Shown here piece by piece: positions 1 to 39,800 of a stretch of 64,000 bases of DNA. Location: positions 7,688,001-7,752,000 of the forward strand of contig OY783217.1 of assembly GCA_963678705.1 (NCBI GenBank), in the 5' to 3' direction. The stretch's first letter is position 1, and each line of letters begins with the position of its first letter. Below the pieces are notes generated by a model, which saw nothing but the letters and a program-made list of their open reading frames with translations, was not told the DNA's origin and searched no databases. A program made the position numbers and the translations under genes. This DNA comes from Panorpa germanica (lineage: Eukaryota; Arthropoda; Insecta; Mecoptera; Panorpidae).

Positions 1-766
1 GCACAACCTTGTAGTCAAACAAAACATTTTATGAATATAATTAACTCTAATTAAATAAATATTTGATTTTGTGAATGTTAAATCCGGTTGACCATTTCCA
101 GGATCCAGATCACAGCCAAAATTGGAAGCTGCCATTTGATGATGACATCCAAAATAGAATTTATAAATTAATACAAATTGATAGTAATTAAAAGTTATTG
201 TTCATTACCAAATTCGTGCAAATCTTGAGGTTGTTATAATAAACATGGTCATTTTTATTCTTACAGCTAGACAACTGCGAAATGTACGAGTGTGGTCACA
301 TGGTGGATAATTTCATCTCTAATTCGAAACTAATCTATTCATAAAGCTTCTTAAGTAGACTTTTTTAAAGATTAGTAGATTAAATACTAACAGGTTTCGC
401 AGGTAAGGTAACAGCGATATTAAAGAGAAAACTTCATCAATTTTTTCAAAGTTACTTTATTATATTGTAAACGGAATGGTATACACCTAAAACCCATTTT
501 TAACATTTAAATTTGAGTATGACTGTAGCTGCGCCAACAAATATTTGTAACTGAAATACATAGTCATATAACTAAATGCTGAAATCTACTAATTAACCAT
601 TAATTAATGCAGAAAACAACAAAACTCATTGATATTAAATATGAGTTTTGTTAAACCACGTTCAGTTACTTTTTATGGTTATGCAAATAGCAAATTATTT
701 TACGAGCAAAAACCTTTCAGACGAATAATGCAGAAAGTTTCAAGATGTGTTTGGTTTAACTGCTGA

Positions 767-913
767 CAGGGCCGACCAAGGTGTGGTGCAGCGCACAAAG
801 CCCTACAAATCAAAATGACTCCATTTTGTCTTTTTAAGGTGTCCCTCGGGAGTAAGGGGAGACACCACAAGTTAATTTTGCACTGTGTCCCTTTCTTATA
901 GGAGCCGGCCCTG
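767..913. mobile_element. Non-autonomous hAT element (MITE)
   Basis: A 147-bp element starts CAGGGCCGACC and ends GGCCGGCCCTG-like (reverse complement CAGGGCCGGC), giving short terminal inverted repeats that begin with CAG, as in hAT elements. It is flanked by 8-bp direct repeats with one mismatch (actgctga at 759-766 and actgcgga at 914-921), the target-site duplication length of the hAT superfamily. It encodes no transposase, so it depends on an autonomous relative. Confidence 0.7.
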
Positions 914-1287
914 ACTGCGGAACACAATTCAAATACAGCACTGAAAATGTGAAACGACACATAAAATTCATTTTATTATTTAAAATCTTATAGTGATATT
1001 AATATTTCCAAAATAAATTTGGTTTGGGGCTACATTTTCACATTTGACTTTGAATAAGTGATGATTATTGCAACAAAGCGTCTTGTGTTATTGTATATTT
1101 ACTTCCAGTGACTTTTTCAGGTGTTACCACAAGTTAAATTTAACCATCGACAAAATTTTTATTGAACTGCATCTACACATTAAGGGCTAACAAAAAATAT
1201 TTTTTTTGTTTGCCCTTTCCATCATCACGCAAAATTGTAATTCTTCTTCGAGTCTCTTCGCAACTTTGGTAGTCTAAACATGAATAT

Positions 1288-1452
1288 TACCTTACATTCA
1301 TGTAATATTTTATTTAAGCAAATATTTAGTCTGTAAATGTCTTATTTTATTAACCTATAGCTTTAATAAAAACATTTAATCTTTGATAAGAATTTCTTAT
1401 GGTCTCATAATACTTAAAAAGGAGTTCTTAACTAGTTTTTTGAGTATGCTAA
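1288..1452 (+). repeat. Dispersed repeat, copy 1
   Basis: This stretch matches the reverse complement of 12732-12892. Shared blocks are TTCATGTAATATTTTA at the left, GTCTTATTTTATTA in the middle, GAATTTCTTATGG, and GAGTATGCTAA at the right end, in the same order. A partial third copy begins near 2118 with TTACATTCATGTAATATTT. It is an unclassified interspersed repeat; no target duplication was identified. Confidence 0.5.
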
Positions 1453-2759
1453 TCTATTTACCAAAAAGCAGTAAAATAGGTTAGAATATGTTGTATATTA
1501 GGTAAAATCGTTTACGTAATAGTTAACTTTGGTTACGTTTAGCGGGAAAGATATACAAGAAAGTAAAAATTACAGAGCTAATTTACTAAATAAGAAAAGT
1601 AGATTAGGACGAGTATATGATGAAACATACGAAAATGATATTGAGCAAAAAATATTATAAATACAGTAAATGTTATTAAAAAGTAAGGAAATATAAATTG
1701 TTGATATAATTTGTTACATGAATGCGGCCATGTCACGTACCTACGTGTTACAATCTCTATAAAATATTTATTCTGTAATTCAACCAACAAGAACTTTTAA
1801 TTTAAAACAAACATGTAAAACATAACCTCACTCTTTTTATTAGTTGGTTGTACTGCAACAGGATCCTGTGGTTGAAACCCATGTTCTCTTTTTGTGTGGG
1901 TAGTACTTCCACGAATTTGCAAAGAACGTGGAATATACTCCTATTAGTTGTCTACATCTTAAGGATAATAATACCTTTTCCCCATTTTGAAGAATGGTCT
2001 CCACTTACATAAATTATAGATCACCGTATAAGGTATTTTAAAAGTCACATGACTCATATTTTGCTTAAAGTATTATTAATTTGAAAACAAAATCCGTTAA
2101 AAACACTAATTATGCATGTTACTATTACATTCATGTAATATTTAACTTAAATGAAAACTAGTAATATTTAATAAAAACGGTCTAGATGAAGATACTTTCT
2201 ACCACTTTAGCCCTTAAAAAGGACTACTTAAAATATTATAATCCCTAATTTGAAGGTGTTCCTGACAAATTTTATTACTACGTTACCGGGTAGATTGATT
2301 CATTTTTCGAAATACTAAATCGTAGTCACAAAACGTAGTGTTTTAGTTATCGTTGTTTACATCAGATAAATCTTAGTGGCGGTACAAATTATAATTGCGT
2401 CTGTGCTGTGACCAATATATTTCAGGAGTACTAGCCGCAACTTATTGAATTATTATAATTGATAGTTGCCTTTTTAGGTATTTGTAGGCGTACTAGAAAT
2501 ATCAAATATCTAACCCCAATCATATTTAAGTGATTATCATTTAGAATGCTTAAATGAATAAAAATTAAAAATTATGGGACGAGTGAATAATTGAATAATG
2601 CAATAAAATTTATGTCATTCGAGAGTAACATAAGAACGAATGAATGTGCGGAACACACAACGAGAATGATTGTGTAATGATGAAATGAATTATGAAGAAG
2701 TAGCTGTGTTTAGTCGCATTGTAAAAACAAACTTAAACAAACTATAACTATAAGGAATG

Positions 2760-3400
2760 TTTTCAGCTACAAGAAAGGATGGCGAAAATAGATCAAGCGA
2801 AATCCAATGAAGAGTACGAGAGAATTTGAGAGAAGGAAGTTTCAGCTGATTTACCTAAAGGAAAAAACAAGATACACAACGCAAATATTAAGATTCAGTA
2901 TGGGGAATAAATAGATAGGTAATAGTTATTGAGAAGAAATAGAGGAAAGGGATTGCAGAATGTATAAGCGAAAAAAGGAAATGTTGGAGCATACAAGGGA
3001 GGAATGCGAATTCAGGATTATCAGTGAAAAGAAGATAGAGAAGAAAGGGGCGGAAGGACGTGCATGGCAGAGGTACAGTGAAGTAGGAAGAAGAAAGAGG
3101 AAAACGGTTAAAAATGGTTAAGTAGAGAACAGAAAGAACAACACGAGGAGAAGAAGAAAAAGAATAATTAGAATCTATGAAGAGATTTAAGTTGAAATGA
3201 ACCGTAATTAATGATTTACCGTGTGAAAAATGCAAAATTATTATTGCATACGATGCCATCCAAGAAAAGGACAACATCAAACGACAATTGAAGGATATAA
3301 AGTCAGACAATCTGGTTAATATTACAGCATGAGAGTTTTTCTCATTGAGACGTACTTTATTAACAAGGTATAACAGAACCTTGAACAACAAACATGATCT
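2760..3400 (+). pseudogene. Decayed coding-like stretch, possibly transposon ORF
   Basis: The + strand is strongly purine-biased here. One frame gives short peptide runs between stops, for example CKIIIAYDAIQEKDN and then IKRQLKDIK, ending near 3331. The charged, coiled-coil-like composition resembles the nucleic-acid-binding ORF1 of retroelements, but I cannot place it in a family. The 167-codon open frame on the - strand is best explained as a shadow of the purine bias. No intact gene is claimed. Confidence 0.25.
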
Positions 3401-6275
3401 GGTAGTTAAAATCGACGTAAAACAATCGAATAAATAAAACCTTTATTTTTCCTTTTCTAACACAATTTTCTTGTGGCTATAGCGACAAGATAATTTATAA
3501 AAAAGTGAATATCTCATATAATCATGATGTTCGTTTTAGTCATTGTGTTTATTTTTATAAATGACAACTACATTTTTTTTATTATCAGTAAAACCTGTAA
3601 TCATTTGTTATATCATCCGACATCTTTCTGTTTTTATATATGTGTTTCTATTTCTGTACCAACTAGTATATTGTCAATCACAAGAGCATCCGTCTATTAC
3701 ATGGCCATCTAATTAAAGTAATGTTTGAATTCTTAATATTTATTTAATTACTTCAACTCAATTTAAGTGTTATTAAAACTGTAAATTTACATTAGTTTAG
3801 TTTTTCATCTTTCTGTTACAACCATGATTTGCAAACTACAGTCCACATATCTTTCGTATCTGCAAAAGAATTTTATGACTTCTTATTAGTGAAGATCAAC
3901 TAAAACTTGCTAGAGTTTCAATCAACGATGAGACGAATGGATAACGGTACGGTAACCAAATGATGTTACTGACCGAAACTTGAACATGACCTTAGCCACA
4001 AACTAGAACGATTTTATTTTTAATGATATTAGAAAACGGAATTATACTATTACACTACATTATTGATTATTGATTTTTATTAAATATTGATTGGTCATTG
4101 ATTGACGATAATGCTAATTTCCCTCGGCAACACCACTTGTCTTCCAACACGGTTCCACTTATTGATCGACCCTCTATATATTACAATTTATCACGATATA
4201 GAAATTCGAGTGATTACATATTTTTTAAATATGTGTTTGCCAAATTGATATTTAGAATACAATAGAATTTCATTGATTTGTCATTAATTCAAAAACAAGC
4301 GCTAATTCTTAGCAATATAATTTGTCATTTTCCAATAAACTGTTTTATTAGACAGTGAATCTAGGTCATAGGTTTATCAAATGGTGTAAAAACCACAAAT
4401 TATCATAATAAACAAATTGATGATTATAATTATCGATGCGGTTCCGACCTACAGACTACACAGTGCGTAGTACCAGTCATTAGGAACGTAGCCGAGCCAT
4501 CCGTGCCATGTCATAGTTCAGTCAAACTGCTTCTTCAAGTATTTCATCGAATATTACTTTGTAACATGGAAAACCAAACCAGAACCTTCAATAAATTTAT
4601 ATTACACATATAAATGTGTAAAGAGTTCTTTGAAATAAAATACAAAATCATGTCGTTTTATTTTTTAAAGTCGCCAATTTGATTGACCAATATGTCGGGT
4701 CATTGAATTCATCACATAAACATTTATATAAAAAGTTATTATAAGTTTTAACATTATTGTAATTTATTTAGTCTTATTAGTTTAAATAACTAGGTAATTT
4801 AATGATTTATGAGAAGTAGGTAATATTTCGAAGTAGTACTTGAAGGATTTAAACTAATCTTAAACCTTAGGTAGAAATACCAATACTGATCGATGAACTT
4901 TTGTGACCGAAGCCAATCGTTTGAAAAGAAAAATGTCTAAGAAATAATGCAATAATAAAATATTGAAATAATTATGTTAATTATTTGTAATTATATTTTT
5001 GAATTAAGTATATTTACGAAGGTGGGTGAAAAGTAGAAAAAAATCGACTTTTAATTATGACTAAAAGTTATGATTATTAATTATGACAAACGGATGCAAT
5101 ACATTAATAAGTAGACTCTTTAATCTGATTGTGGTTCCCAACAAAAAGTTAAATTTCCTGTTTGACCGAATTACCACAATTACTATCACAAAACCGTCAG
5201 GCTATTGTTTAAATTTCACGTAGTTAACCACAAAATTTGTTCAATAAGCCTTGGAAAGCAAAATATGCAATTGTTGTACAAACCTGCATATACATTAAAT
5301 ATAATAGAATAGATGTAATATAGGATAGATGATCTTAGTAATTACAATATCCTAAAATTTACATTAAAAAGTTTGATAATGAAATATACGAATATATTAA
5401 ATTTTATAGAAATAAGATATAAATGTTAAGCAATATTAACTAATTTTTATTATTAATAACAAATAATTGTATAGTAAAAGAATTTCTCTTAAAATTAATT
5501 AGGCTCAAAAGTATTAATTTTTTTGTTCTCGGGCTTTTTCATTTCACAGAACTAATCAATACCCTTGGAATCTTAGATTGCGACGATGTGAAATAAGTGT
5601 AAGTTACTAAAGACGTTACCCTCTCTAGCCTTATATAATTTCTTAAGTATCTTTTAATTCGTTTTAAGGCATAGAAGGATCTATCGTACAGACATAGCTA
5701 AATAAATTCTTAACAGCATTTCGATATTAAGAAAGGAAGTTACATTTGTTACGTTTATAAAGTGGTACATATCAATCGAGGTTTGTTAATTTTGTTTGTT
5801 TGTTATTTCTCTTTTATCGCGAGATACTGAATCTGGGCCTCTCCAGATTCCAGGCCTACGAGATTTGTCTTACTTGTCTATTGGTTAATCGGGGCTTGAT
5901 TGTAACAAATGGGTATCTAATCAAAAGTACTAAGCAAAAATTAATAATTTGTGTTTTAAAAGAAACTTCAGACTTCATTGACTGGTCCAGTATGACACCT
6001 ATGACACACACACATAGATAGAAGTTGGCCGAATTGATACCGCTGCGCTGCGAGATGTTGGACTACGCGAACGCGATATGACCTATCCCCCTCCATAAAT
6101 ACCTACCTCATACCAAAGTACCTTATGGTGCCATAATACCACGGTACGGTACGTTACGATGCGAGTCATCGAATGCCATTAAGTATTATTCCAATTGAAA
6201 CGGATTCAAGTGAATCTTCGCTGATTCTGGTGATTCTGCTGATCTCCTGATTCGACGCACTACTCGCGGGTAAGG

Positions 6276-6311
6276 TATATAAGCCTGGTCTTGTTTACCA
6301 ACACATCATTT
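6276..6311 (+). promoter_or_regulatory. TATA box plus initiator of scarface-like gene
   Basis: TATATAAG lies at 6276-6283 and an arthropod initiator, TCATTT (consensus TCAKTY), at 6306-6311. The presumed start nucleotide is the A at 6308, 32 bp below the TATA start, which is the standard spacing. A 5' exon follows directly and ends at a strong donor, GTAAGTG, at 6428. Promoter assignment is inferred from motif spacing and the downstream splice signal. Confidence 0.65.
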
Positions 6312-6427
6312 TAGTTTAACGTTTAGCCGCGGAACAATCAGCAAACATTTGTTTTTTATAGTTCATTGTTTGTTGTATTTGTTTTTTTAGTTTAATATCT
6401 ATTTATTTTATTGGATATCAAAAAAAT
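6308..6427 (+). other. 5' non-coding exon of scarface-like gene
   Basis: The segment runs from the predicted initiator to a GTAAGTG donor at 6428. It has no useful start codon; the ATG overlapping the donor is cut by the splice. It would join, over a 3.4-kb intron, to the acceptor ending at 9829, five bases before the coding start at 9835. No transcript evidence is available, so the 5' limit is a prediction. Confidence 0.55.
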
Positions 6428-9400
6428 GTAAGTGATTATTTTATTCATATTTTATAATTTAGTGTGTGTGATATTTAAGTGATATTGTGTTTTTATTTTG
6501 TGGAATTTTGTAAAAAAAATAGTGTTGAATTTTAGTGCTACTTATTATACTTGCAAATTTTGAAAATGTGGTTTTACGAAAACATATGCGAAATTTTTAC
6601 TAACGAAACAAATTTCTGCATTTTTAAAAATGCATTTGCAAAAATACTCCTATTTCTAAGGAACCATAAGTTTTATTTTCTAAACTATATAAAAACAATC
6701 CGTTATACATAATATGTAAAAATTACATAAAATAATCTACCGCATTATATAATTTTATAAAAATGTAATAAATTTTTCATTACAATTATAAAAGATTGAA
6801 ATTTAATATTTTTTATGTATGAGTCCAAATTTTGCCTGCATTATAATTACAAAAGGTATCGATTTAAATTGCAGTAGTAAATTCTTTCTTATTTTTATAA
6901 TATCATAATGTAAATTTTTTAATTTAATTTATAAAATTAGTAAATTTTAAAAAAAATTTAAACTTTTTTTGTGAAACTCATTAAAACTTATTTTATTGAA
7001 TGCACATTTTAAAGAAAAGCAATCATTTTCTGTCGTAGAGAGAATTTTTAATAACTAAGCTTTAACTTTTACTTTCATCTGAGCTTTCCTTTATAAATAA
7101 ATAAAAATCAGACAGAAATCTAGACTATCGTAAACGAAATTTTGCAAAATATACATGATAATCAAAATCAACATTCATTTACATTTCTTGTGTTCTTCCT
7201 ATTCTTTTTTAAAGTTCTTTTGTTGTGTTATTTCTTAAAAATATTTTATAGTGTTAATAATATTGCGTTCAATCTACACTAATACTATTTTTTACACCTG
7301 TAAAACAAATAATTATAACGTTAAGTTTTAATTTGACTTCTCATCCACAGAATTCACATTGTAAAATTTTACATAAAACATTTGAAATTTTTTATTTTAC
7401 TTAATACGAATATTTCATCACAGTATAAACGATATTTAACAAAATATGGAAATGAGGAAATGTTTTCAGTTTCATATTTTAAATTAGTTTTTAACCACAC
7501 TGTTAAAAAAGTTCTTAAAGTTAATAGGTAAATGCATATTAAACTTAAGAACCGGGTATATTAATTATAATTTAAAATGTATTAGTTAGCATTTATTAAA
7601 ATTAATATAACTTTACAAAACAATTCTATTTTATGCGCTTATGAAAATGAATCTTCTTTTTCCATGCACTAGTTATAAAATTAGCTTCAAATATGTTATT
7701 TTTTAATATCAGAAAGTTTTTTTTAAGAGTTAACAAGTTTTTATATCTTCTTATCATAAAATTTTAGAGTAACATTTCTGAGTTCAAATCTCAGACCAGG
7801 TATGTTGTAGATATATAAAGTGCTTCTGTCGTACCTGGATAATATTATATAATGCACATTTGTCTATAGAAACAAATATCAGTATTTAAGTTTATCTAAC
7901 ATAACAAAAGTTACCTGTTACGTAACCAATTTTGCACCAAGTTCTTTTTAAGGATTACTAGTTTTTATAATAGCTATAAAATAAAACTCTTCTAGATTAT
8001 ATATTACTACTGTTGCTTAAGTAACAGATAATGTGAATGTAGAGTAACATCCTTATTTTACGGGGATGTTAAATATATGCTTTTAACGTAAAAGAAAGGG
8101 AAACATATTTGCATGGTCCAAACGCCTCTAAAAATTATAAAAACTCAGATTACATAAAACTTCTCAAATCAGGAAATATACGTACTACTAATTAAGAAGC
8201 TTACACAATTACCTAAACAATTAACATTATTAAAATATTATATCGATGTTTTAAGCCATTCCATTCTAGAAAATCCTTATCTTATATAAATGTAATTTAC
8301 ATGAATCTACTAAAATTAGCAAATGGATATTTTTTTTAAAAGTTAATTATTATTATTTAATAACTGTTAATGAACAATTTACAGTAGCTTAGAGAAAATA
8401 ATTACCTATTGATTATATTTTTAGCAAACATTGATTTATTTGCAAACAACATTTAATAATTAGACATTTATAAAGGAGCGTTCGTGCTTTGTACAAATTT
8501 AAAATAAAATTATTGACAGTGTCGTATTAGGATCATGTAGGCCTTCTGACACCAGGTGCTTTGAAGCCCCAAAAATATATTCAAAATAATTGGATTTTTT
8601 TAAAATTTATTTTTTAATGATCAGAAAGTGTTTCTCACTGTTACAAATATTCCACAAACGTAGTTACGATTTGTAAGGTTTAATTAATATAAAAAGTTAC
8701 CCTTATTAGTTAATATAATGTAAGATGTTACCTTCCGACATCAGTTTATATCATCTGACGTCAATTAAGTTTTTTATGCAAGATAATATAAAGTTACTTA
8801 TAAAATTAATATATTGGTAAGAAATTCTGAATGTCTTTTGCATTTATTTAATGATAACGTTGCAGAAAGTTGCAAGTGCAGTTAGGTAAAAACTATTAAC
8901 CTAAATAATACATTAGTATTAATGACAATAGAATTGCCACTTTAATTTGTTGCCATTATGTACAAGTCATACTTTGACATTTAAAATTTGATAATACATA
9001 CTTTTGAGACATAGAAATACTTTGCAGTACAACATCGCACACAAATCGTACTTATTAATAAAGCTTATTAGCTTATTAAGAAAATAATATTCTCATATCT
9101 GAATATGCCCTTAATGCAGCTCTGACTACCAGAATGAATCAAACATATCTATTTAGGCGTGATCAATCGATTTTAATTAAAAATACTCTGTTTAATTTGT
9201 TTAAAACGTAAATCACACATTGAAACGCTAATTGATGTGTTATTGAGAAATAACATTAATACGTATGTTTCTTCATCACGAAGAGATCAGAATTTAAATT
9301 TACCTTCAAAATGAGGGCCAAGAATTTACGCAAGATTATATATTACCTATTAAACAGTTTGTTAATATAACCACGTTTCCAATGAAATGGATTTGGTGGG

Positions 9401-9829
9401 AAAAAGCTTACGTGCAGGTGTAAGTTATAAGCGTTATAATACATTAAGATTCCGATATCGAAACACGATATAAACTATAATATCAAGTTATGTTTATTCA
9501 TTTTTGTTACTTTCTTCAATAAGCTGCTTATGCCAACAAGTGAACTTTACTTCTCAAATTAAACATTATTAGGTCTCTAGCAATTGTCATTTATTGATCC
9601 AAAAACCACTTATAATAATAAAAGAGCAATTACTAATGTATGAAACAACTAGCACATTCATGGAAACATTTAGTAATAAATTTATACTTAACATATCAAT
9701 TACATAAATATTACGCTAAAACTTTGTGTTTACAGTGTGAATAAAATTAGGATAATTATTTTGCACCTTATTTTCAATTTCCTTCACTTATTAAAAACGA
9801 ATCTAATAATATGTTTTCTTTGCTTTCAG
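6428..9829 (+). other. First intron of scarface-like gene
   Basis: A 3.4-kb AT-rich intron between the predicted 5' exon and the first coding exon, ending in the acceptor TTTGCTTTCAG. No gene, clear transposon or conserved-looking element was seen. Its large first-intron position is where developmental enhancers often lie, but no specific site is claimed. Confidence 0.5.
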
Positions 9830-15800: not shown

Positions 15801-18800
15801 ACGTGTTTACTGTATTGCCTCGGGCAAGGACTTATCGAGAGAACGCTCAAATCAGCATCAAACGTCTGCAATAAATAAAAATATCTTAAGGATTTAATAC
15901 AGAAGTGTACAACGCTGAGCACGCGTGTCAGTTTATAATATTTATGTCTCAAAGATAAATCTGAAACAGTGCGTGGGAATGCAGTTTTAGAACCCTTCTA
16001 ACTATATTATTTATTTAGAAAATTGAAAGTGTGATCTCTAAGAAACTTTTTAAATAATTTTACATTACTTTAAACTAAAAGTATAATGTACTCATAAGAA
16101 CGGAGTCCTCTGCAGTCAAAATTGTAAAATGATTGACGGTTTTAATCGTTCAAAACTTTGTTGTTGTTAAAAGTATAATTAAAAAAGATTATGATTAGAA
16201 AAAGAAGGATACCAAAAGGTTAAAAAATAATTATTTATACTGCGACCTATTCCTATAGACTTATAAAAAAAGTAAATAATAAATACATATTCTATGGTAT
16301 ATGTTCAGTGATAATAATAATAACAGCCTGCTGAACACAAAACCTAAAATGAAACATAATAATATTTAATCTACAAAAGGATACTTTATTATAATTTACT
16401 ACGAGAAATACCTTCTTAAGATTTTATATTCCTTAAAAAAAACTACTTAAGAAATTGTTTAAATACATACGTTAATGCACAAAGTAATAAAGTAGGTTAC
16501 AAAAAGGTTTATTTTAAAGATCATTGTTTACGTGACATATAATTTTTGTTATGTTAGATCAATTTTAAATACGTGTTTAGAGAAAAATAAGAATTAATGT
16601 TTATGAACAATTAGTGTAAATATAAAGAATATTTTTATTTATATACAAAGCTAATACATTCTCAAAAAAAAATTCATTTAAAAAACCATTTACCTAAAAA
16701 AGTAAAACTTAAAATTTGATTATATTTTGCCTTGTAATGACTTTTTTCCTCCGCAATTTAATTTTCTGTTGTTTGAAATCCCTGCATTCATAACCTAGAG
16801 ACCACACTACCGGATCCAAAAATACCAGCCCGGCTGCAGCTACCGAACCTTATGACTTTTAAGTTTGAATGAATATTTTAATCAAATTTTTTATCATCTT
16901 CAAAATTAGAGGTGTATATATCTTATATACACATATATAATAACAAATAATGTATGTATATATAATTTATATCCATAAAAGATTATAAATTGTCAAATTC
17001 CGTCCTTAAAATAATAATGACCGAATCGCTTTGCAATTCTAAAAATATTCAAATTTGTTCATTTTAATTTAATAGCCATAACCCAATAGAAATTAATTAA
17101 TTGGCTGATTATTAATATTTGCATTAGAAACATAGAAGATAACGTATAATGATGTTAGTATGTTGTGGCCAGCTTTATTTAGCATTCTGGTTATACAAAT
17201 TGTAGCCAGCTACAAGCAAATTTTCTATATTTCTATTTTCGTATAGAAAATTGTAACATAGTGCTAGCTCGCTACAAAGTCATTCCTAGATTCTTTTTCT
17301 ACCTGTACATTTGTTTTAACGGGTAACTAAATTATTATTTAACTATTTGTTTTTCAGAATTTACATATAGAAAGTGCATTTGACCAAATTACTTTTTCTA
17401 TAATTCTTTATTATTTCAATTGCAATCTTAATGCCTGCTAAAAGAAAATCTTCCTTGTTCGTTGCTATGAAATTATTAAATGAATATTTTAAGAATATTT
17501 AGCCACGAAATAACCTTTTTATAATCTTCACTATAAGACAAAGTGTAAACCTTGTAAATATAATTATCAGAATTTAATGTAAGACATACATTTTATGTTC
17601 AACAGGTATTTTATAAATTAATTTATTTAACGTCGGCCTATTTTCGATACTGAGTCTATACTTCTACTATGTTGGCAGCTTTTGTGGTTTCGTGGAGTCA
17701 TATATGTTTACTAACAAGCTTATAATTATGAAACTATAAGTTTGATGCGGGAATCGAACCCGCAGACACAGCAGTCAGCGTCAAGCATCATTGCTCTCTC
17801 CCGCTGAGTCGTCTAAGGATTTTAACGTTAGTCTTGATCCTCAAGTTTATGCAGTAGCTGCAGGCAACAAGAAGTCAATTTCTTCTTGAACTCTGAATAA
17901 CTCCTTGAAGTCATATTTCATGGTCTTGTTACAAGACAACGATTAATCAAAATAATTATAATAATTCAAACATAACTCAAAACATAAAAATAAAAATAAT
18001 AATAAATAAAATATTCAATCGCAGTTTTATGCAAGACTAATGCATTGCCACAAATAATATTTAGTTAAATATAAAACAAATTAACATAGTATTTACATTA
18101 TTCATTTATTTATTAGTTTGAATACATAATGAGCGAATTCATTACTTTGCAGGATCAATATTGTGAGGCCGATAGCCAGGTCTGCTGTTCTCTACCAGAT
18201 AACTATCAAACCGGTCCAAGTCCCGCAGCGGCCCAAAAGTGTGATGGCAAGACAAGCATCTGTGTGGAGAAACATCTTTGCCTCAATGGGAACGTCAATA
18301 TCCATGGCGAAGGCGTCTTCCAAGTTAGATCACAGGTATGTGGAGATATATCCATGTAGAACTAATTGAACGGAGGTGAAACGGATGTCAATGAATATCT
18401 AGGGATTCCCCAAGATCATGTTTGCTTTGAATAACTGGGAATCCCGCTGTAACATATGATTTATCTTAGAACTCCTTAATTTATGAGTATCAGTATATTT
18501 AGAATCCCGGTTTTATATTTTTAACTAGAATTTGTAATTTACTATTTATAGTAGATGATTATACATGACCCTACCTTTATGTAACTTTTATAAAGTCTTT
18601 CAACAAGAGCGGTCATTTTAAATCAATAGAAAAACTAAATATTTTCGTGAAAAGTGGTGATATTTTTATTTTAATCTAAGTACAAACTCTCGAGGTTAGT
18701 AATGAACACAATATCTGCCAAGTGTCACCGAAATATTGCGTTTTTCTATTGATTTAAAGTAACCGCTCTTATTGAAAGATCCTATATAAACAGACACGTA

Positions 18801-21800
18801 CAGACATAAATTTTACATAAATATTCGGTTCATATTTTGATTAAAAATTAAACTATTGGTATTTTATTTAAAATCTGTCTATTTTACAATAAAAGAACTA
18901 TAACGCAGGTTTTATTTTTGATATACATTCATGCAATATTGAATACAAATTTGCAAAGATTTAACTGCATAGTTTCTGTGTCTAAAAAATGGTTCGACTG
19001 CAAAAACATTGTACAATCCACTGTAACACTACAATGTGAAGAACAAAACGTGAATTACACAAGCAGTGCATTAGAGTAAAGGCAAGTGTCCTTTTAATCG
19101 CATTGGCTTCCCAATAAACAATTTGGTGAAGTTTTTTCCTGTTTTATAACTATTGCACTTCAGTTATAGTTCGCATCAACTTTATCTTCATTTGTATTCC
19201 GACAAGTGGAGTGTTTTCGCCGATAAAATAAACATTTTATATTTGTGAATGATTTGTAAATGAACTATTTCATGACAAGAAAATCATACGCATCTTCATT
19301 ATAATGGCAAAGCGACTCCAAAATGTTTACTGAGTTTATTCAATAAAAGGTGGAAGAGAAAGAACGCTTGAGGAAGGCGTATGCAGCGACAGCTACGGTT
19401 CCTATTATTATTGTATGCTTTAGCCTTGTAAATGAGCTATCGTTGGAAGAGCAACCCTTAAGAAGCATACCAATATCAATAGTTGTTACAGCAGATCCAT
19501 AATGCAACCGCAACATGCGCCTCCCCTCATGCTTTATTTCTCTTCCACGTCTTGTTTTATAAAGTCCTAAGATTTATGCAAGTAGTGCGGACATTTGAAC
19601 GCTTTTTAAATGAAAATATCTAATATAAACTGATTATAAATGTTGTCAGTAAAAGCAATATATAATGACTACACCAAATACAAAGACCTAAATAGAAAAG
19701 TTTGACTTATTTCGTGAAACAGTACAAATCAAGGAAGAGGCTAAAGGGACAAGGTTAAAAATATGTTTTCATAGAAGTCTCACAGTTCTAGTTACGCCAT
19801 TGCATGCCATTAACAAAACAAGCAACTAATAGTTATTATCTATATCATTACCAAAGTAAAACCCAATTTTATACTAGTGTAAAAATGCTATTGCAAAATA
19901 TCACCTTAATCTATACGCAAGTAATTAGCTGCATAACTATTAACCTGACGCAAGGTTAAGGTTATACAAATCATAGTTTATAATTACCAGCAACAAAGTA
20001 AAATTAACGTAATAAAACAGACAATTTGTAACAAATTGTAAAGAAATCCGTGACCCAACAGAGCTGACTCGTCTGACCGAGTAACAACATCCGCCAAGTT
20101 AAGGTTTTTTGCCTGACCTTGTCCGGCGGGCATGCTGTTGGCTGTCGGACGTCGTGTGACGTCACGCACTAACCGCAGACATTGTAATTGCACAAACAAA
20201 AAAACAGTAGGACTGAAGATATAAATTCTAACATTGGAATCAATGCTAAAGCCAGTGTTAAGTAAATACAAATATTGAACTACAAAGAACTTCACAATGA
20301 CATAACTGATGGAAATATGCACAGGGTGATTAAAAAACTAACCATGTGTAGAAGCACAGATAGATTCCGATTGCGAAATTCCGTTTATATGGGTGAGTTG
20401 TATGTGAATGAGGGTAAATCCGTAGACATTGCACCCTTCGTGCCATCGGTGAACAGTATTCGGTTCCCCACTATATTTCCTTTCCCCCAGGACAAACGCA
20501 CTTCATTGAACAATATTAGTTTGGGATGTATCTCCCTTTGAGATGTATGTACATATGCAGAGGTAATTTCTGTACAACACTTCGCGAGTTTATGGCCAAT
20601 ATAGGCTGGCATTGCAAAACTCTAGGAGTTGAGGGAAATCAAATTAAGATTTACTGCACACAGTATAGTGTATAACTCGTACTTCGTTTGCGGAAACCGT
20701 TGCATACAATCTGATTGATGATTTGAGTTAAGAAATACTTAAAAAATGATATCGTGGGGTGTACCGGACGAAATAATGGTCGATTATTTTTTTTCGGCCC
20801 TATAATAGCAGTTTACGATTGCATCGCTATAGCCAAGAATTCCATGCGATCGTAATCAAGTATTTCATGCGATAAAAAGTGTCTTAGATCAAGTTCACGT
20901 GGTGTTGTTTGTTGAAATTTAGCATTATCAATTATGATTTTTATTTTCTTATCACTATTTGCAGTTCGTTTTTCTTTGAAGGGTTTGTAATTAAAATTTT
21001 AAAATGGTTTTCTGACAAGTGGGTCAAAAACGTATTTCTTTATTAATGTGATGGAATTGGAAACTCCTATTATAGTACCGTGGAAATCGAACACACTCCA
21101 CGATATCATCTTTTATATCTCTATAATCTCTTTAATTTATTTTTGTCTATTTTTATTTAGGCTTTAGCTTTGTGCAGCAATTAATCTAATAACAAATTGC
21201 AAGTATTTTTTGTTGGTTTTTTTGTATTTTCGTTTATATTTAGAACCCCAACTAGTATTTATACAAACTTCTGTATCTTTTTTCTTAAGACACCCTATAT
21301 ATTATAAAGTATTATACAAACATTACTTATTACGTGTACTCATGCGTATGTAATAACACCTGAGTTATTATTGCTATCTCATTCTAACATTAATTAAAAC
21401 TATAAAGTGTGAAGCAAAAAAAATATAGCCCTTGAAATACGTTTATTTTGTAGAAATTCAACATTCGCAAATATTTTTTATAATTTCTTAATATTGGGAT
21501 TGACATTTTACGATAACATGTTAAATTTTTAGCGTAAATGAAGAACATATTACCTAAAAGTGTAGTATATGTTGAAATGATTTAATATTGATTAGTGTAT
21601 TGCGTCAACACAAAAAATGTGATTGACATTCTTCAGTTCATTTGTGCGGTACATTTGTTTACCCGAAACAAACAACAATAATTCAATTATTGATCGACCT
21701 GAGTAAATTTTTATTTTTTTTTTTAATTTTATTTTACAACTTACATAATTTACAATCTGTCCTCGAAGAACATTAATTAAATTTTGGGAATATATATAAA

Positions 21801-30800: not shown

Positions 30801-33800
30801 TGTATTCGCTGTCACAGTGCTGCACTCTGTGGCCAGAAATATAAACTAGTGTCAAAAAGTAAAATTATTGTTTTACCTGATAATCTGTATTTACTATTTT
30901 TGTTGTTCATTAGAACCTAGTGTACCGAAATTTTTAACTATAGAAAACTTTGAAACCGTTGATTTCTTATGATTTACGACTAGGTGATGAACTTTTACCC
31001 CAATTTCAGAGTTAAAGTTAAGCGCTAAGTGAACACTTTTAAACACATTTCAAATAATGATAATTCATTAATTTTACATTAGAATATATAAAAATACACT
31101 TACCTTTACAGATGCAACTCTAGAAATTTCACTACAATATAGTGTTAGGTTATATTTTTTTAAATTAGTCCAATGAGTTAATATTTAAAAAATGTACACA
31201 TAATGTTGATTATAATTTAAATAATTATTTTATTTTATAGAAGCTATTATTATTTTCGTTTTGCTTGCATGTTAAATTATAACTTGGAAATAGGAGCACT
31301 TCAAAAATATATAAATCAAATACTTATCACAACAAGTCCACATTCACGTATTCGTGCATTATAAAATGTAACCTAACCTACAATATCACAACACTCTATT
31401 TATTATAAAATTTAAAGAGTTTCGCGGTAATTAAGATAATTATAAAACAAACTATTTTAATAAATGTAGTAAATGTCAAATCTTTTAAAACAAACTAAAA
31501 CTTAAAATGGCAGACATGATGCTGCGCTTGACAGACGCACTTGTTTCAACAAATAACTTATTTTAATTTGTTACCCACGTGAAACTTATTATTTCAACAC
31601 TTGTATAGTTAATTACTATTTGATATAAAGTACTTGTTATAGTTATTAGATTAATATTTTACCTAAAATTTGTATTTAAATGTGGCCCGTCTACACAAAT
31701 AACTTTTAAGACTACCGCTACGTGTAATGCACTGTGGGTAATGATATGTCGGTAAATTAGATAGCTTTATTCTGGGTTTGATTTATGGATAAGTGCCACC
31801 TGTTCAAGAATAAATTTAACTTCAATGTACTCGAAATAATAGAATTTGGAATAATTAAAAAGTAAATGTGAAATCAGGGTATAAATGAATTAAAAGGCAT
31901 TGTACAGTGAGATTTGGGCGCTGTATCTTTTACGATTCTGCCCTGTGGTATTCAAGTAGAGATTGTTCACTTTTAACGAAAGGGAAATTATTTTATTGCT
32001 GACTTCTGTGTGGTACAAGAACAACATATCTTTAACGCATCGCAACAGCACGCATAACTGTGCGAAATACCTCTCAGTTTGAGTGTGAGATAAAAATGAT
32101 TATTAAAAAATACTAATCAAATATGTTGTAATGAAAAATAAATTACATTAATTTATGTTTAATTGATAAAGTTAAATGTTTTGTGTGTGCGAATTTGCTT
32201 CTCGTTTCATACTACAAAAAAAAAACTTCTCGCAACAAATTGAAAAGAAACATGATGCTAAATAACCACGCGTTGGCATACAGGTGATTTGTTAACATTT
32301 TATACTTGTTAAATAAAATTAAATTAATTGGCACTTCTTAATATGTATGTGTACAAGTATATGTATATGGAAATAGCAGAGGTTGGAATTTAAAAGTTAT
32401 GTGGAAAGAACGTAATTTAATAGTTCCTTAGTCTGAAGTTTTTTAAAATCTCTATTATATTATTTTTACTGTCTGCGAATTTATGCTTATACATATGCAT
32501 TGGCATGGATTTTATGTTCTATGTTCATACTATGTACTACACTACATTGCTCTATCTATGTTAGCACAAACCCCCTTCAGAAGTTCATATAGGTTAGAAT
32601 CCATTTTATTAGAGCAATCTTGCATTTTTTTATTATTTTTAATGTTTGATTTACACCTTATACATTTAATTAATTTCAAGAAAAGTTGTTTAACATTTTG
32701 GTGCTAACATAATATCCTATTGATGACTAATTGATAAATTGGTGGGCGAAATTATGATGCAAAGCATTTTAAAATGTAGTGTAATATTACACAACTAACC
32801 TTAAGCAGTTCTTGTTTGATTCATTCCGATCAGATCGGTAGAAAAGAAACTGAATAACCTTGAACAATCAACATCAATATTAGGTAAATGTCACTTGATG
32901 ATAAAATTAGTTTTTATAACTGGTAGTAGTTAAACTTTTAGGTAATATTAAGACGTTGAACTAAGCGCGTGTAACTAACGCGAACAAACTTAAAACTAGC
33001 TGAAACTAAGTTAATATTTCTAGTTAAATGGTTTCAATACTTTTATACTAAAAATAGAAGTTTTCCTGTTAAGAGTAATTATTTATATTTAGAGTATTAG
33101 GTGATTTCAACATCACGGTGATATATACACCTGAAGTTATTTTGTTTTTGTTAAATTACCTATATATAAAGCATGTATGATACATACTTTTCATATTTAG
33201 CTGCTATATACAAAATATTATGAATTAAATCGTCTAATAGTATATACACAATTTTACTTAGGAAACCTAGTAATATTTAATCCAAAATAAGTCGAAACAT
33301 TATGTTTCTAAAGATATTTTATAATCCTTTTAATCCTTATACAATACCCAGTAAATATTTGGTGAAATAGAATGGCTAGGTGAAGTTTTGGTCACTGGTA
33401 CATTTCAATTCTAACATTTTACAAGTTGGAGCAACACACAGAAAATAAATTTTAGTTCAAATTCATTCCCTACCTGTCAAGATTTTATGAAATAGAATCT
33501 AATATCTGTAGTATAAGCAAGTTCGTTAACAGTTCAAAAGTGGTACACAAAAGTCGCTTTTAGTTCAAATTGATTCCCTACCTGTCACACATTTTGTGTT
33601 AGCTGTTAAAATTTTTTACATATTAATATACTTTCTTTTTCCAACATCGTTCATTAAGTAGCAGCTGTTTCTTTCACACTTGTACATATTTTTTTTAGAT
33701 CATTTTCACTCAAAAGTGAGAAAGAAATGTGCCAAGTGAGAAAGAAACGAGATTTAGTTAGACAAGTAAAATATATTTTTCACCGTTACACTTCTATAGT

Positions 33801-36800
33801 TGTATAATATTTCGTTCAGTACTGTATGTTTAAAGTATATGCTATCCTTTTTCAACAAATATTTCTTTAATGGTAATCGACAGACGCTGTCTCCCTCAAT
33901 CCCCGAATATAATGTATTTAAACGAAGATTCTAAGCAGCGGTGGAAGATCTATAGATAACTTGTAATACATTGATAATATATTATATAAACGAAAATTAA
34001 AGCATTGATATTTAATGTCAGACTGCTGTGTCTTCGGATTTGATTTCTAGGTTTATTTGTTATGAAATTTAGTTATTATTTAATAATCATAAAAGGACAC
34101 TGTGGGCCACATATATAAGGCCACAACACTGCAAAATCTGCCAACATAGTTCGATCTTGTCGCCGATCGGAAAAAGACCGACGTTAAATAAATTAAATAA
34201 AAAATCATAAATGTTAATAGGCTGACACTAGAAGAATTGGCAACAGAAATAGGTCAATGATAAACAAATTTAAAAACATAATTGTCCATTTTGAATTTAG
34301 CCATGTACTCATTCAATAAACAAATATACTTTGGAGTAGTAGTTTCAAAAACGTCCACCAACCTTTGGGGGCACTTATTGCCTAAAGTTAGAACGTGGTT
34401 AGAACTGTCTAATTCCTCATACTGGATCACGTCACTCTTATAAATTTGCAAATGTTGTACTTTTACCATTTGTCGAAAGAACAGCTATTAAAATTGTTGA
34501 GATATTGCCTAAAAATTTGCTTACATTTATCTATAATTGGAATTTAATTAAAATGTCAAAACACATTTTAATTTTTAGAGAATGTAACCCATTAAGATAA
34601 CTCAGGTCACCGTTAATGTTACCGCTATGTAATTAAAAAATATTTTAAAAAATCTTCTTAATTTGAAACGATTAATTTATGCAATATTTTTTTTTTTGCT
34701 TATAACAGAAGTCATTTGCTAAAAGAAAATAAAGATGAAACCATTTCAAATAAAATTAAATAAAAAAATAATAATAATTACGAATATAAGGTTCTGATAG
34801 TTAACTTAATCGATACTTAGTACATTTTATAGGATGTAGACCACTAGGCCATTTTTCAAAGGACTCTTTCTGAAAAAAGAAAGCAACTTACCTTACATTT
34901 GCGTTTGTTTCTATAATAGGGTCTAATATCTATATAATGTAATTATGTTATATAGAAATACCTCTATAATGGGTTTTGGAACGCTCCTGATTTAAAGCAT
35001 TTAACAAAGTTTATCAAATTTTACAACTTTATATGTAACCATCAAATATAGTTAACAAACACTACTCTAAATACTAATACTAATACAAAATATATATATT
35101 TAAATATATTAAGGAGATATATAAGTAAATATATGGAATCCAGTTAATAGATATCAATTAATTATAGGTTAGAATCCATAAACGTGTTATTGAATTTTAC
35201 AGACATAAATACTGAATATAAAACTATGTAAGCGTTATTAGCGTTAATATTATTCGTTAAAAATTAGTATATGACAAAATCAAAAGTTCAAAATACTAAA
35301 ATAATGACATAAATGTCAATGGATAGACATCACCTCGCAAGAGAACGCTATGCCAAACCGCCGTGCCGAGTCGCCGAGTCTATGTCAAGTCAGCATTATT
35401 TATTGACAAGTCACAAAGTATACAAATACTACTAAAAACTCGCTTGCAAAAATATTTCTGTGTCATTCAAACCATTTATAGAATTATTACTTTGAAACTA
35501 CCAATATTTGACGTGTCATTCATGCGATTTATCTTTTATTAATTGGAAAACACACCGCTTCCATTTGTAGCACATTTTGCAAAATTAAAAAGAGTTGGTT
35601 TCTTCAATTTCTTAACTTAGTTTACACAGTAAACTATAAAATGAAAGATATTTAAATTCTTTGATGAATCAACAATGAATTCGTAGTTAAATTGAATTCG
35701 TTATTTCCATTCATAATGAACTCCACATGTGTCCAGAGTTCACTAAATATACATTTCTATTTAATTAAAGTGACCTTCACCGTAATAGTATAAATTTTGG
35801 TTTGTCCTCGTTTTCCCCGGCTATATCACAAATGTATCATTTAGTTATATATAGTTAATAAATTAAAATTCCCAGTAAACAATTTGGTGAAGTGCCCTAT
35901 TTGGTGAAGTTCGAGTCACTCGTACAATTCTATTCTAACGCTTTACAAGTTCTCTACCTGTCACAGATTTTGTGTTAGTTATTCTTTCTTTTTCCAACAT
36001 CATTCATTAAGTATTTTTGTTTCTTTCCCACATGGATATATTTTTTTTAAGTTCAAAGTGAGAGAGAAACGAGATGCGTTAGACAAGTAAAATATATTTT
36101 TCACCGTTACACTTGTATACTTGTATAATATTTCGTTCAGTACAGATATTTAAAGTATATGCTACCCTTTTTCAACAAATATTTCTTTAATGGTAATAGA
36201 CAGACGCTATCTCCCTCAATCCCCGAATAGAATGTATATAAACGAAGATAGTACCTAGCGATGGTAAGACAGAGGTTTTAAACCTAACGCAGACCTGCCG
36301 ATCGTGGATTTTTGAATCACCAAAACAATGTAAAAAACTAATATAACGAGTATTGTTGAAGATGAATAATATTCATTAAAAAAATCGCGATCCGTACTAA
36401 AGATTACATCTATTTATTTCTTCATTTAAATATTTATATTTTGCAGACTCTAAAAAGTAGAATTCCATTAAGTTTTATACCCCTGCTATCCCTGCTAGTT
36501 TCAAGTTTATAACTCCGGTCATAAATCATAAACCTACTCCGCTTTTAATTCAGCAGTGAACCGTCGTTGCAATGTCTGTAGGTCATGAAAAGGGCCTTTC
36601 CTATGAACGACTGAATAGAAAACGAACACGTTCCAGACAAAAAATTCATAATATGTAATAGAAATTAAGTAGAATTTACTCCAAAATGTTTACTGGGTAT
36701 ATATAGTTAATAAATTAAAATTAGAAATTATCGCTATTAATTTTGATGTATATTGTACTAGCTTCTGTATCAACTTCTTCTTTTGTAAAATTTTCGATTT

Positions 36801-39800
36801 ACGTTTGAAGTTACGAAAAAGAACTTCATCATAAAAGGAGAACGTCTGTAAATATAAATGCGTATTAGCTACAAGTTTTTTTAATTTTATTTATCATTTA
36901 TTGCAGGAACAAATTTGCGCTGCAAGTGAAATTTGCTGCAGACTTGTCGATGATGGTTCCAAGAAAGACAAACCACAACCAAATCCTGCCGTTCTTATTA
37001 CAACAGGACACAATACTCTTGTTCCATCAGGTCCTTATGCCAACGCAAAACCAGGTTCCATTGTTTCCGAAGGAAAACTTTACGAATACGGATCATCTGA
37101 CTACCACAAGAAATTCGAAGGATCAAGTTCTAACAGTATCCCAATTGCAGAATCCACAAGTCCACAAAGTACCTTCATTTTGGGAGGTTCCCCTGATTTC
37201 GGTCCAAGTGTTAATGTCTTAGGTCAAGGAGGCGGACTATTCCATACAGGAAATAAACCTGGTGATAATGGATACAACCTAAATGGAGCTACAGTTTTAG
37301 GACATGGTGGATCACAGTCAGGATCTGGATTGTTCTCTCAATCAGGAAGCTTCCCATCACAAACTCAACATATCGGTTTTGGAACTGGTGTTAGTCAACA
37401 AGGTTATGAATACAAGAAACCTGAGACAGGATATTTGCCTGCTACAACAAAGAAACCTTTCAAAGCTGATGGATATATTCCTCCACCACAAGCGGAAATC
37501 GATCCTTCTGGAACTGATATATCCGGTACACAAATCTTACCACCAACACCGGAAACTAACTTCATTCCTGGACCCACTAACACACGACCAACCTTTATTA
37601 GACCTTTCAGTAAGTATACGTCATAATAGTCCATTTTACATTTTGATAAATCTACAGAATGATTCTAATAATTTCTCTTTGTTTTCTTTTAGCTGAATCT
37701 TCTGTTATTGTAAACACACCATATGCTGGTTGTGCAGCTGCCTTGAAATGTGTCGATATTAGCTTCTGTACCTTTGAAGGAGTCATTTCAAAAACAGTGG
37801 TCACTTTAAGCAAAACTCAGAACGACTATAGAGTTCCTTTAACTGTAAGTAAACTCACAAAACAGGCTATTACTGCATATACCTATTAGCTTAAATAGAT
37901 GAATTAAAAATGGTTGTTTCTTTTATAGGATTGTAGTGATGTAGGTTCAGGCAAAATTGGTAAATGTTGCCGTGATCCAGACTACGTTGACCCATGGCCA
38001 GCAAGTCAATTGGGTCAATATAACCCAGAACTTCTAGGTTTCGATACTGGCGCATACAAAGGTGAAAGATACACAAGTAAATATCGTCCATCAGTACCCA
38101 AAACACCAACATTGAATCCATCAGGAAGCATCACTCAATTTACTAAACTTCCAAGACCAGAAAATAATCCAACTTATCCAATTGGTGTAACACAACGACC
38201 ACAAGTTCAACCAACCTTCCCAACAATTTCTTTTCCAAGTAAACCACCAGTATATGTTAAACCTGTATTCCCTGAACCATCAAGACCTCAAGTTCTTCCT
38301 CCGATACCACAACAGCCTCAACCATTCCCAACAGCACATCCTTTCCCACCCAATCCTACTATTACCTACACTGGCAGTTCAAACACCCCAATCCCTACAC
38401 AATACAACCCAGTTGTACCACCATTTGGAACCTCCCCTCCAAAGACTAGCTATGAATATCAACCAGCTGGATCTGTCAAAACCGAAAGATGTGGAGTTAG
38501 AAATTTGGTGAGTAATTAAGCTCATATTATTGTTTTATTTTTTACGACCATGTTTACGATACATAACGAATTGTCTGATTTCTTAATAGAACGCTAGCCC
38601 CAAAGGACCAGGTCCAATTGATGCTGCATTTGGAGAATTCCCATGGCAAGCGATGGTACTCTTACAAACAAATAGAAGTCTGTTGTGTGGAGGAGCCATT
38701 ATTGAAAATGATGCTGTTGTCACTGCTGCCCACTGCGTTGATGGGTAACAATTTATATTATATACATTAATTACTATTGAACTAAAACATTTGATTATGG
38801 ACAACACTACAAACAATTTCTCTAAATCTCGTCCGAATATAATATGATTCTAATGCGATTCGGTTCAATCCGTTCGAATCTAATACGAATCCTATACGAA
38901 TCTTGTCAACATTGTTTGTAGGGATCCTAGTAAACAATTGGGTAAATTGTCACACTTTGTAATGTTTTTGTCACATTTTCGCATCTGACGCCATCTTTAC
39001 CATTTGAAGCCCATAAAGGTGACATTTCATATGTTCATATAATGAAATTAAAACATGTTATTTTTAATTTTCTAGATTAAATCCGACTGATATTTTAATC
39101 AAGGGAGGAGAATGGAAATTGGGAGTTGATGAAGAACCCAAGACATTCCAAATCGTTCAAGTTAAATCAATCTCCTTCCACCCAGCATATCAACCAACTG
39201 ATTTAGAATATGACGTTGCTATTCTTCATTTGACCGAAAAACTTAAATTCGATACACATATTGACACTCTCTGTTTACCGGAAGTTGAACAAAGCTTCCA
39301 AGAAACGACACACCAAGATTGCGTTACAACTGGATGGGGAAAAGAAACACTACAAGGTACAAAAAAATGTTAATTATTTTATTGGTATTATAATATAAGA
39401 GGCTATTCTTGCGTACACTGTTAGATTAATATCTTCAGTATTATATAATTTATTATTATTAATTAAATATTCAACCATATTTGGTTATAGTTACGTTATA
39501 TTTATATTAAATAAATCTATAAAGATAAGTATATATTTATGAAAATAAACATGTTTACCAATTAACTCATTCATTTAAATATAACTTAAATACTCTACTC
39601 TCACTAATCGTAAAGTTAAAAAATATATGTAGAAATCCACATATATATAACGTATTATTTATGTAAAATATTTTATTCAATATAAACAGAATTTTACATA
39701 ATTTTTTTTACATAAACTATAATATCTTTCATAATATGCAAAACTTTGTTTAGCGGGACAATTAAATTGTATTAAATATACAAATTAAAAATTAACACAC

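Follow-up and report, generated by a model that had tools for sequence, protein, structure and literature searches.

An 827-bp DNA transposon copy, here termed element A, lies between two identical 25-bp direct repeats in a 64,000-nucleotide stretch of the Panorpa germanica genome (assembly GCA_963678705.1, contig OY783217.1, positions 7,688,001 to 7,752,000; this whole stretch is hereafter the window), and yet the great majority of the complete siblings examined are flanked by a duplication of only 2 bp. Element A most likely belongs to a large cut-and-paste family of the TRC type (CACTA/En-Spm) as a non-autonomous copy with an internal deletion, and it looks like an outlier among its siblings rather than a new kind of mobile element. 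We consider it probable that an ordinary TRC-type element here underwent a one-off event with a 25-nt stagger, generated either by the transposase or by DNA repair, an explanation that rests on a single case among the copies examined. The 25-bp flank is accordingly not a trait of the family, and evidence for long target duplications that comes from a single copy has to be compared with siblings. Should such duplications recur at a low rate among the thousands of copies, the family would constitute a good natural record of the frequency with which transposase or repair departs from the 2-bp stagger.

The original prediction placed the 827-bp element exactly between the two 25-bp repeats, and this is confirmed by both coordinates and identity (Table 1): the 25-mers are the same in every base and abut the ends of element A without a gap. 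The inverted ends are 19 bp long and differ from each other at two positions. Immediately outside the ends stand the bases AAAATT (before) and TATATA (after), such that identical flanks exist only at lengths of 1 and 25, and the two joints fall at TA on the right and TT on the left, only one of which is the commoner pyrimidine-purine (YR) step. Shortly after element A begins a reading frame (36835-37626) that probably belongs to a clip-domain protease gene; in a Pfam scan of the window, six of eight reading frames were matched, among them frames with Scarface-type clip, trypsin, ribosomal L27A/L15-type and RING domains.

Table 1. Family members, termini and flanking repeats in the window (window positions).
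Feature	Positions	Strand	Remarks
Element A, non-autonomous TRC/CACTA-type transposon copy (most likely)	35871..36697	+	827 bp
5' terminal inverted repeat of element A, CCCAGTAAACAATTTGGTG	35871..35889	+	0 mismatches to terminus pattern
3' terminal inverted repeat of element A, CCCAGTAAACATTTTGGAG (complement)	36679..36697	-	0 mismatches to terminus pattern
Left 25-bp direct repeat flanking element A	35846..35870	.	identical to right copy
Right 25-bp direct repeat flanking element A	36698..36722	.	identical to left copy
Copy C, complete short member	19110..19334	+	225 bp; both ends; related to the ~254-bp form
Copy B, family 5' end and interior	33347..33948	+	right boundary approximate
Copy D, weak 5'-end-like match	38926..38974	+	3 mismatches in 19; membership uncertain

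At the offset of 827 bp, an abutting 25-bp repeat occurs at one of 63,060 window positions, the next longest being 12 bp, and 20 first-order Markov versions of the window had maxima of 15-18 bp for direct repeats spaced 60 bp to 4 kb apart; on these two grounds the repeat around element A is not a product of chance. The assembly to which the window belongs (464.2 Mb, 249 contigs) was searched for the exact, AT-rich 25-mer with a tool that may pass over very frequent words, and the only places found were the two flanks of element A. With two mismatches permitted, three further places were recovered, compared with 7 for a reversed control pattern; beyond the 25-mer, these three places and the flanks of element A share only short, weak matches (best E 9e-4 over 25 bp). 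No empty site holding the 25-mer with up to two mismatches was found in the assembly, the three near-matches lying in other surroundings. Two other identities for the 25-mer were considered and rejected: it is not a repeat family, its exact copies being confined to the flanks of element A, nor is it a part of the element, since copies B and C are without it.

The inference that element A belongs to a real family is borne out by the genome as a whole, in which the exact terminus CCCAGTAAACAWTTTGGWG has 10,981 matches (5565 forward, 5416 reverse) compared with 0 for the reversed control, a number that translates to some thousands of copies. In the window, the terminus pattern with at most three mismatches has 5 matches, against 0.03 expected. 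Recurring forms measure ~254, 375 and 740-880 bp, and longer ones extend up to 9.4 kb. The three additional partial copies that had been listed for the window require revision: the one at 19110 (copy C) is complete, the one placed at 33348 (copy B) begins at 33347 and has no recognised 3' end, and the one at 38926 (copy D), which adjoins exons of the clip-domain protease gene, is only a weak end-like match.

Other repeated sequences lie in the neighborhood of these copies. A 17-bp direct repeat, TATAGGTTAGAATCCAT, at 32588-32604 and 35163-35179 flanks a 2.56-kb stretch containing copy B and may represent the target duplication of another insertion. Within copy B, a mir-202-like hairpin at 33665-33750 (Rfam score 32.9, gathering score 51) is probably a chance inverted repeat; across 33200-36900, Rfam gave no structured RNA, its four matches at E values of up to 5 staying under the gathering score. 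Just upstream of copy D, inverted stretches recognized by eye, ACTACAAACAAT ... ATTGTTTGTAG (38808-38922), resemble the termini of a further small inverted-repeat element. Elsewhere in the window, a repeat of ~97 bp is present in opposite orientations at 34109-34204 and 17610-17707 with ~75% identity, and a partly self-complementary 19-bp direct repeat, TTACATTCATGTAATATTT, is found at 1292-1310 and 2125-2143, a spacing of 833 bp.

The lengths of the target duplications were compared among 38 distinct complete copies of the family (element A included, as L056), of which 33 carry an exact 2-bp duplication and, in all 33, no longer identical flank. By class, the duplications are 2 bp in 33 copies, 25 bp in one, ~15 bp in none, and absent in four. 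Element A is thus the sole copy with a long flanking repeat, in agreement with the suspicion that a 25-bp flank is unusual for such an element, and the short constant duplication in other copies that the original prediction had named as the observation counting against long duplications is what the family displays within this sample. Among the exceptions other than element A, L007 has nothing, L031 has TT/TA, and L028 and L065, each with four mismatches in one end, have no identical flank; L078 is less sure among the 33, one of its ends carrying 4 mismatches and its CC duplication adjoining CCC. The copies were collected by a script that paired opposite ends in fetched loci at lengths of up to 2.5 kb. 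A copy was left out if only one end was recognized, if an end had over 4 mismatches, if two like ends were paired, if the locus provided under 40 bp of flank, if its length exceeded 2,500 bp, or if its 20+20 flank bases duplicated those of an earlier site. Owing to the order in which the search lists places, the 37 copies besides element A all lie within the initial 16.2 Mb of contig C1, and they form a small sample relative to the 10,981 exact ends.

Copies outside this set present the same picture of short duplications: copy C is flanked by TT/TT (19108-19109 / 19335-19336), copies of 6.9 and 6.7 kb, above the script's limit and with near-identical flanks, have a TG duplication, and a 9.36-kb copy in locus L039 has TA. 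Element A's own ~0.8-kb siblings also include members with 2-bp duplications (L013, L021, L024, L044, L045, L046, L076 and L089). When folded on strands, the 33 duplications comprise CA/TG (10), TA (10), AA/TT (6), AT (4), GA/TC (2) and CC (1), so that pyrimidine-purine steps account for 20 of 33, compared with a fraction of 0.248 among the steps of the window.

Some loci bearing family ends have undergone duplication of their own. In L038 (G000:C1:5837900-5842900), a 4.3-kb stretch is an inverted duplication: the same family end bounds it at left and right, its flanks are inverted, and one reading frame occurs in identical form on either strand. Family ends recur at a spacing of 6871 bp in L040, which holds a heat-shock-70-like frame (named by eye), and at G000:C1:16137277, 16144148 and 16151019, which suggests that the element was carried along in a tandem segmental duplication. 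Finally, the same insertion site is seen twice in opposite orientation in L009-L012 (G000:C1:922932-933165) and again in L048 and L049, a sign of inverted segmental duplication.

Sequence divergence provides an estimate of how well the duplications should have been preserved. Compared with the majority of the ~0.8-kb siblings over 822 sites, element A shows 27 differences (3.3%), and nine other well-aligned members of this size differ from the majority by 3.0-5.7%; L083 aligns at only ~50% and belongs to another form. By simple arithmetic, ~4% change per copy would leave a 2-bp duplication intact in ~85% of copies, which is close to the proportion seen, and the exceptions with short flanks therefore need no special cause. 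For two 25-mers generated at insertion, the same arithmetic at 3.3% over 50 sites predicts ~1.6 differences; the complete identity observed has a probability of ~0.2 and is not remarkable.

Assignment of the family to the TRC group is supported by its ends, its target duplication and the spacing of protein motifs, and not by a domain match or a tree. TRC elements from Schistosoma (SmTRC1), Tribolium and Aedes are described as having CCC ends and 2-bp direct repeats, the latter in 7 of 14 Schistosoma copies, and their proteins as containing Asp residues 80 residues apart together with a conserved CXXC motif (PMC1636069). The inverted repeat of the present family likewise begins with CCC (ends CCC..GGG) and the end sequence CCCAGTAAACA resembles the Aedes TRC end given in the same source, CCCAGTCAAC (PMC1636069); the TRC-type 2-bp duplication is characteristic of the family but not of element A. 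The L039 copy (393-9750, 9358 bp) contains an ORF, L039:1337-2539, with a CGKC motif and two Asp separated by 78-82 residues, and it is a likely transposase ORF. Transposase_21, the domain sought in a full-length TRC-type copy, gave no match to the two L039 ORFs in Pfam up to E = 1, where the only matches were weak and below curated cut-offs (best E 0.018, to an unrelated family); NCBIfam gave no match for these ORFs and a PDB search gave one (E 0.36). Element A itself departs from TRC elements in its 25-bp flank and in that no long reading frame was found in it.

In the L039 copy, a gag-like frame is also enclosed by a pair of identical direct repeats of 623 bp, an arrangement that looks like an LTR element of 3693 bp nested in the transposon; subtraction of this stretch leaves ~5.7 kb for the transposon itself. 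A similar length, a consensus of 5,836 bp, is given for Spongebob_HMa of Hydra (PMC4298943). That element, described with EnSpm-4N1_HM as having the end CCCAGCCAACATTGAC, a 2-bp duplication and short copies in insects, resembles the present family in its end and its duplication, the comparison being one of description and not of sequence (PMC4298943). In collections of other genomes, viral contigs contained no exact match to the full terminus or to an interior 27-mer, and five matches to a version of the terminus with 16 specified bases look like chance and showed no convincing second end; no match was found to an interior 23-mer in GTDB genomes or to the whole element in phage records. In published text, CCCAGTAAACA turns up in nine papers, and the occurrence that was examined sits inside a primer.

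How might a member of such a family have acquired a 25-bp flank? The usual mode of the family is insertion with a 2-bp target duplication, and for element A we propose, as the simplest account, that the target strands were instead joined ~25 nt apart, such that gap filling of the stagger would generate the 25-bp duplication. The same outcome may also be viewed as a regular insertion at TA to which a further 23 bp, copied from the opposite side of the target, were added. The stagger could have been produced by aberrant (uncoupled or displaced) strand transfer by the transposase, or by repair capture at a break staggered by 25 nt. This second route, in which the transposase would excise the element without inserting it, and the excised element would be end-joined into a break with nicks 25 nt apart whose overhangs are then filled in, is a possibility to which we give rather less than even weight. 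Its plausibility derives from work in which Cas9 nicks in mouse and human cells, rather than transposons, gave staggered breaks whose fill-in and subsequent end-joining produced small tandem duplications (PMC8355091). Capture would also account for the absent 2-bp duplication and for an arbitrary length of the repeat. End-joining often trims or adds bases, however, and both ends of element A are base-perfect, with no filler seen. The perfection of both ends leads us to lean toward aberrant strand transfer, even though capture of an excised element at such a break leaves an identical footprint, and a single copy does not distinguish transposase from repair.

It is unlikely that the 25-mer already stood there as a tandem pair and that the element inserted precisely between its two units, a possibility also raised in the original prediction. 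That part of the idea which stands is that the resulting sequence would be the same as the one observed; yet the TT/TA flanks permit only a 1-bp, a 25-bp or no duplication, from which it follows that the element would have had to enter at the exact junction and to duplicate 0 or 1 bp. The sequence as it stands excludes the usual 2-bp insertion into such a pair. The confinement of the 25-mer to this one site in the assembly further speaks against a tandem origin. Tandem Repeats Finder detected no array at the site of element A, with the reservation that a pair split by the element would escape detection.

Retroposition of an element transcript by target-primed reverse transcription, with its long and variable duplications, would accord with the retro-DNA copies of DNA transposons described in primates. 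These copies were selected for duplications of at least 8 bp, as in element A, but also for a lack of inverted ends, and a possible polyA tail was recorded in 176 of 748 (PMC11195612). Element A retains both inverted ends and has no A-rich tail in either orientation, which makes retroposition very improbable and leaves the suggested composite of retroposed and DNA-type sequence without support. It is also highly unlikely that an assembly error duplicated the 25-mer: the evidence does come from one assembly only, but the structure spans less than 0.9 kb and the exact 25-mer was found at no further place, leaving no long repeats by which an assembler might be confused. The suggestion of an odd integrase with which the whole family makes ~25-bp target duplications has element A itself in its favor and is the least credible of all, the 2-bp duplications of the sampled copies and of copy C standing against it; it could be revived only if the rest of the genome were very different from the sample.

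A broader form of the preferred reading, in which TRC/CACTA transposases occasionally join target strands about two helical turns apart and so create rare duplications of 20-30 bp, is speculative and, in our estimate, doubtful; our literature searches found no published animal case of such rare long duplications. A parallel is IS481EU of parabasalids, for which duplications of ~4, 15 or 25 bp are described within one family, the 24-25 bp class being named for single copies, as with element A; for IS481EU-7_TV, only one copy with 24 bp is given (PMC10045372). The two systems differ in other respects: IS481EU is described from parabasalids only, belongs to another transposase group and has ends of TNT..AYA or TGT..ACA, whereas the ends here are CCC..GGG and the usual duplication is 2 bp (PMC10045372). 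Were occasional long joining to prove true of TRC-type transposases, element A would represent an animal case resembling the 4/15/25-bp mix of IS481EU.
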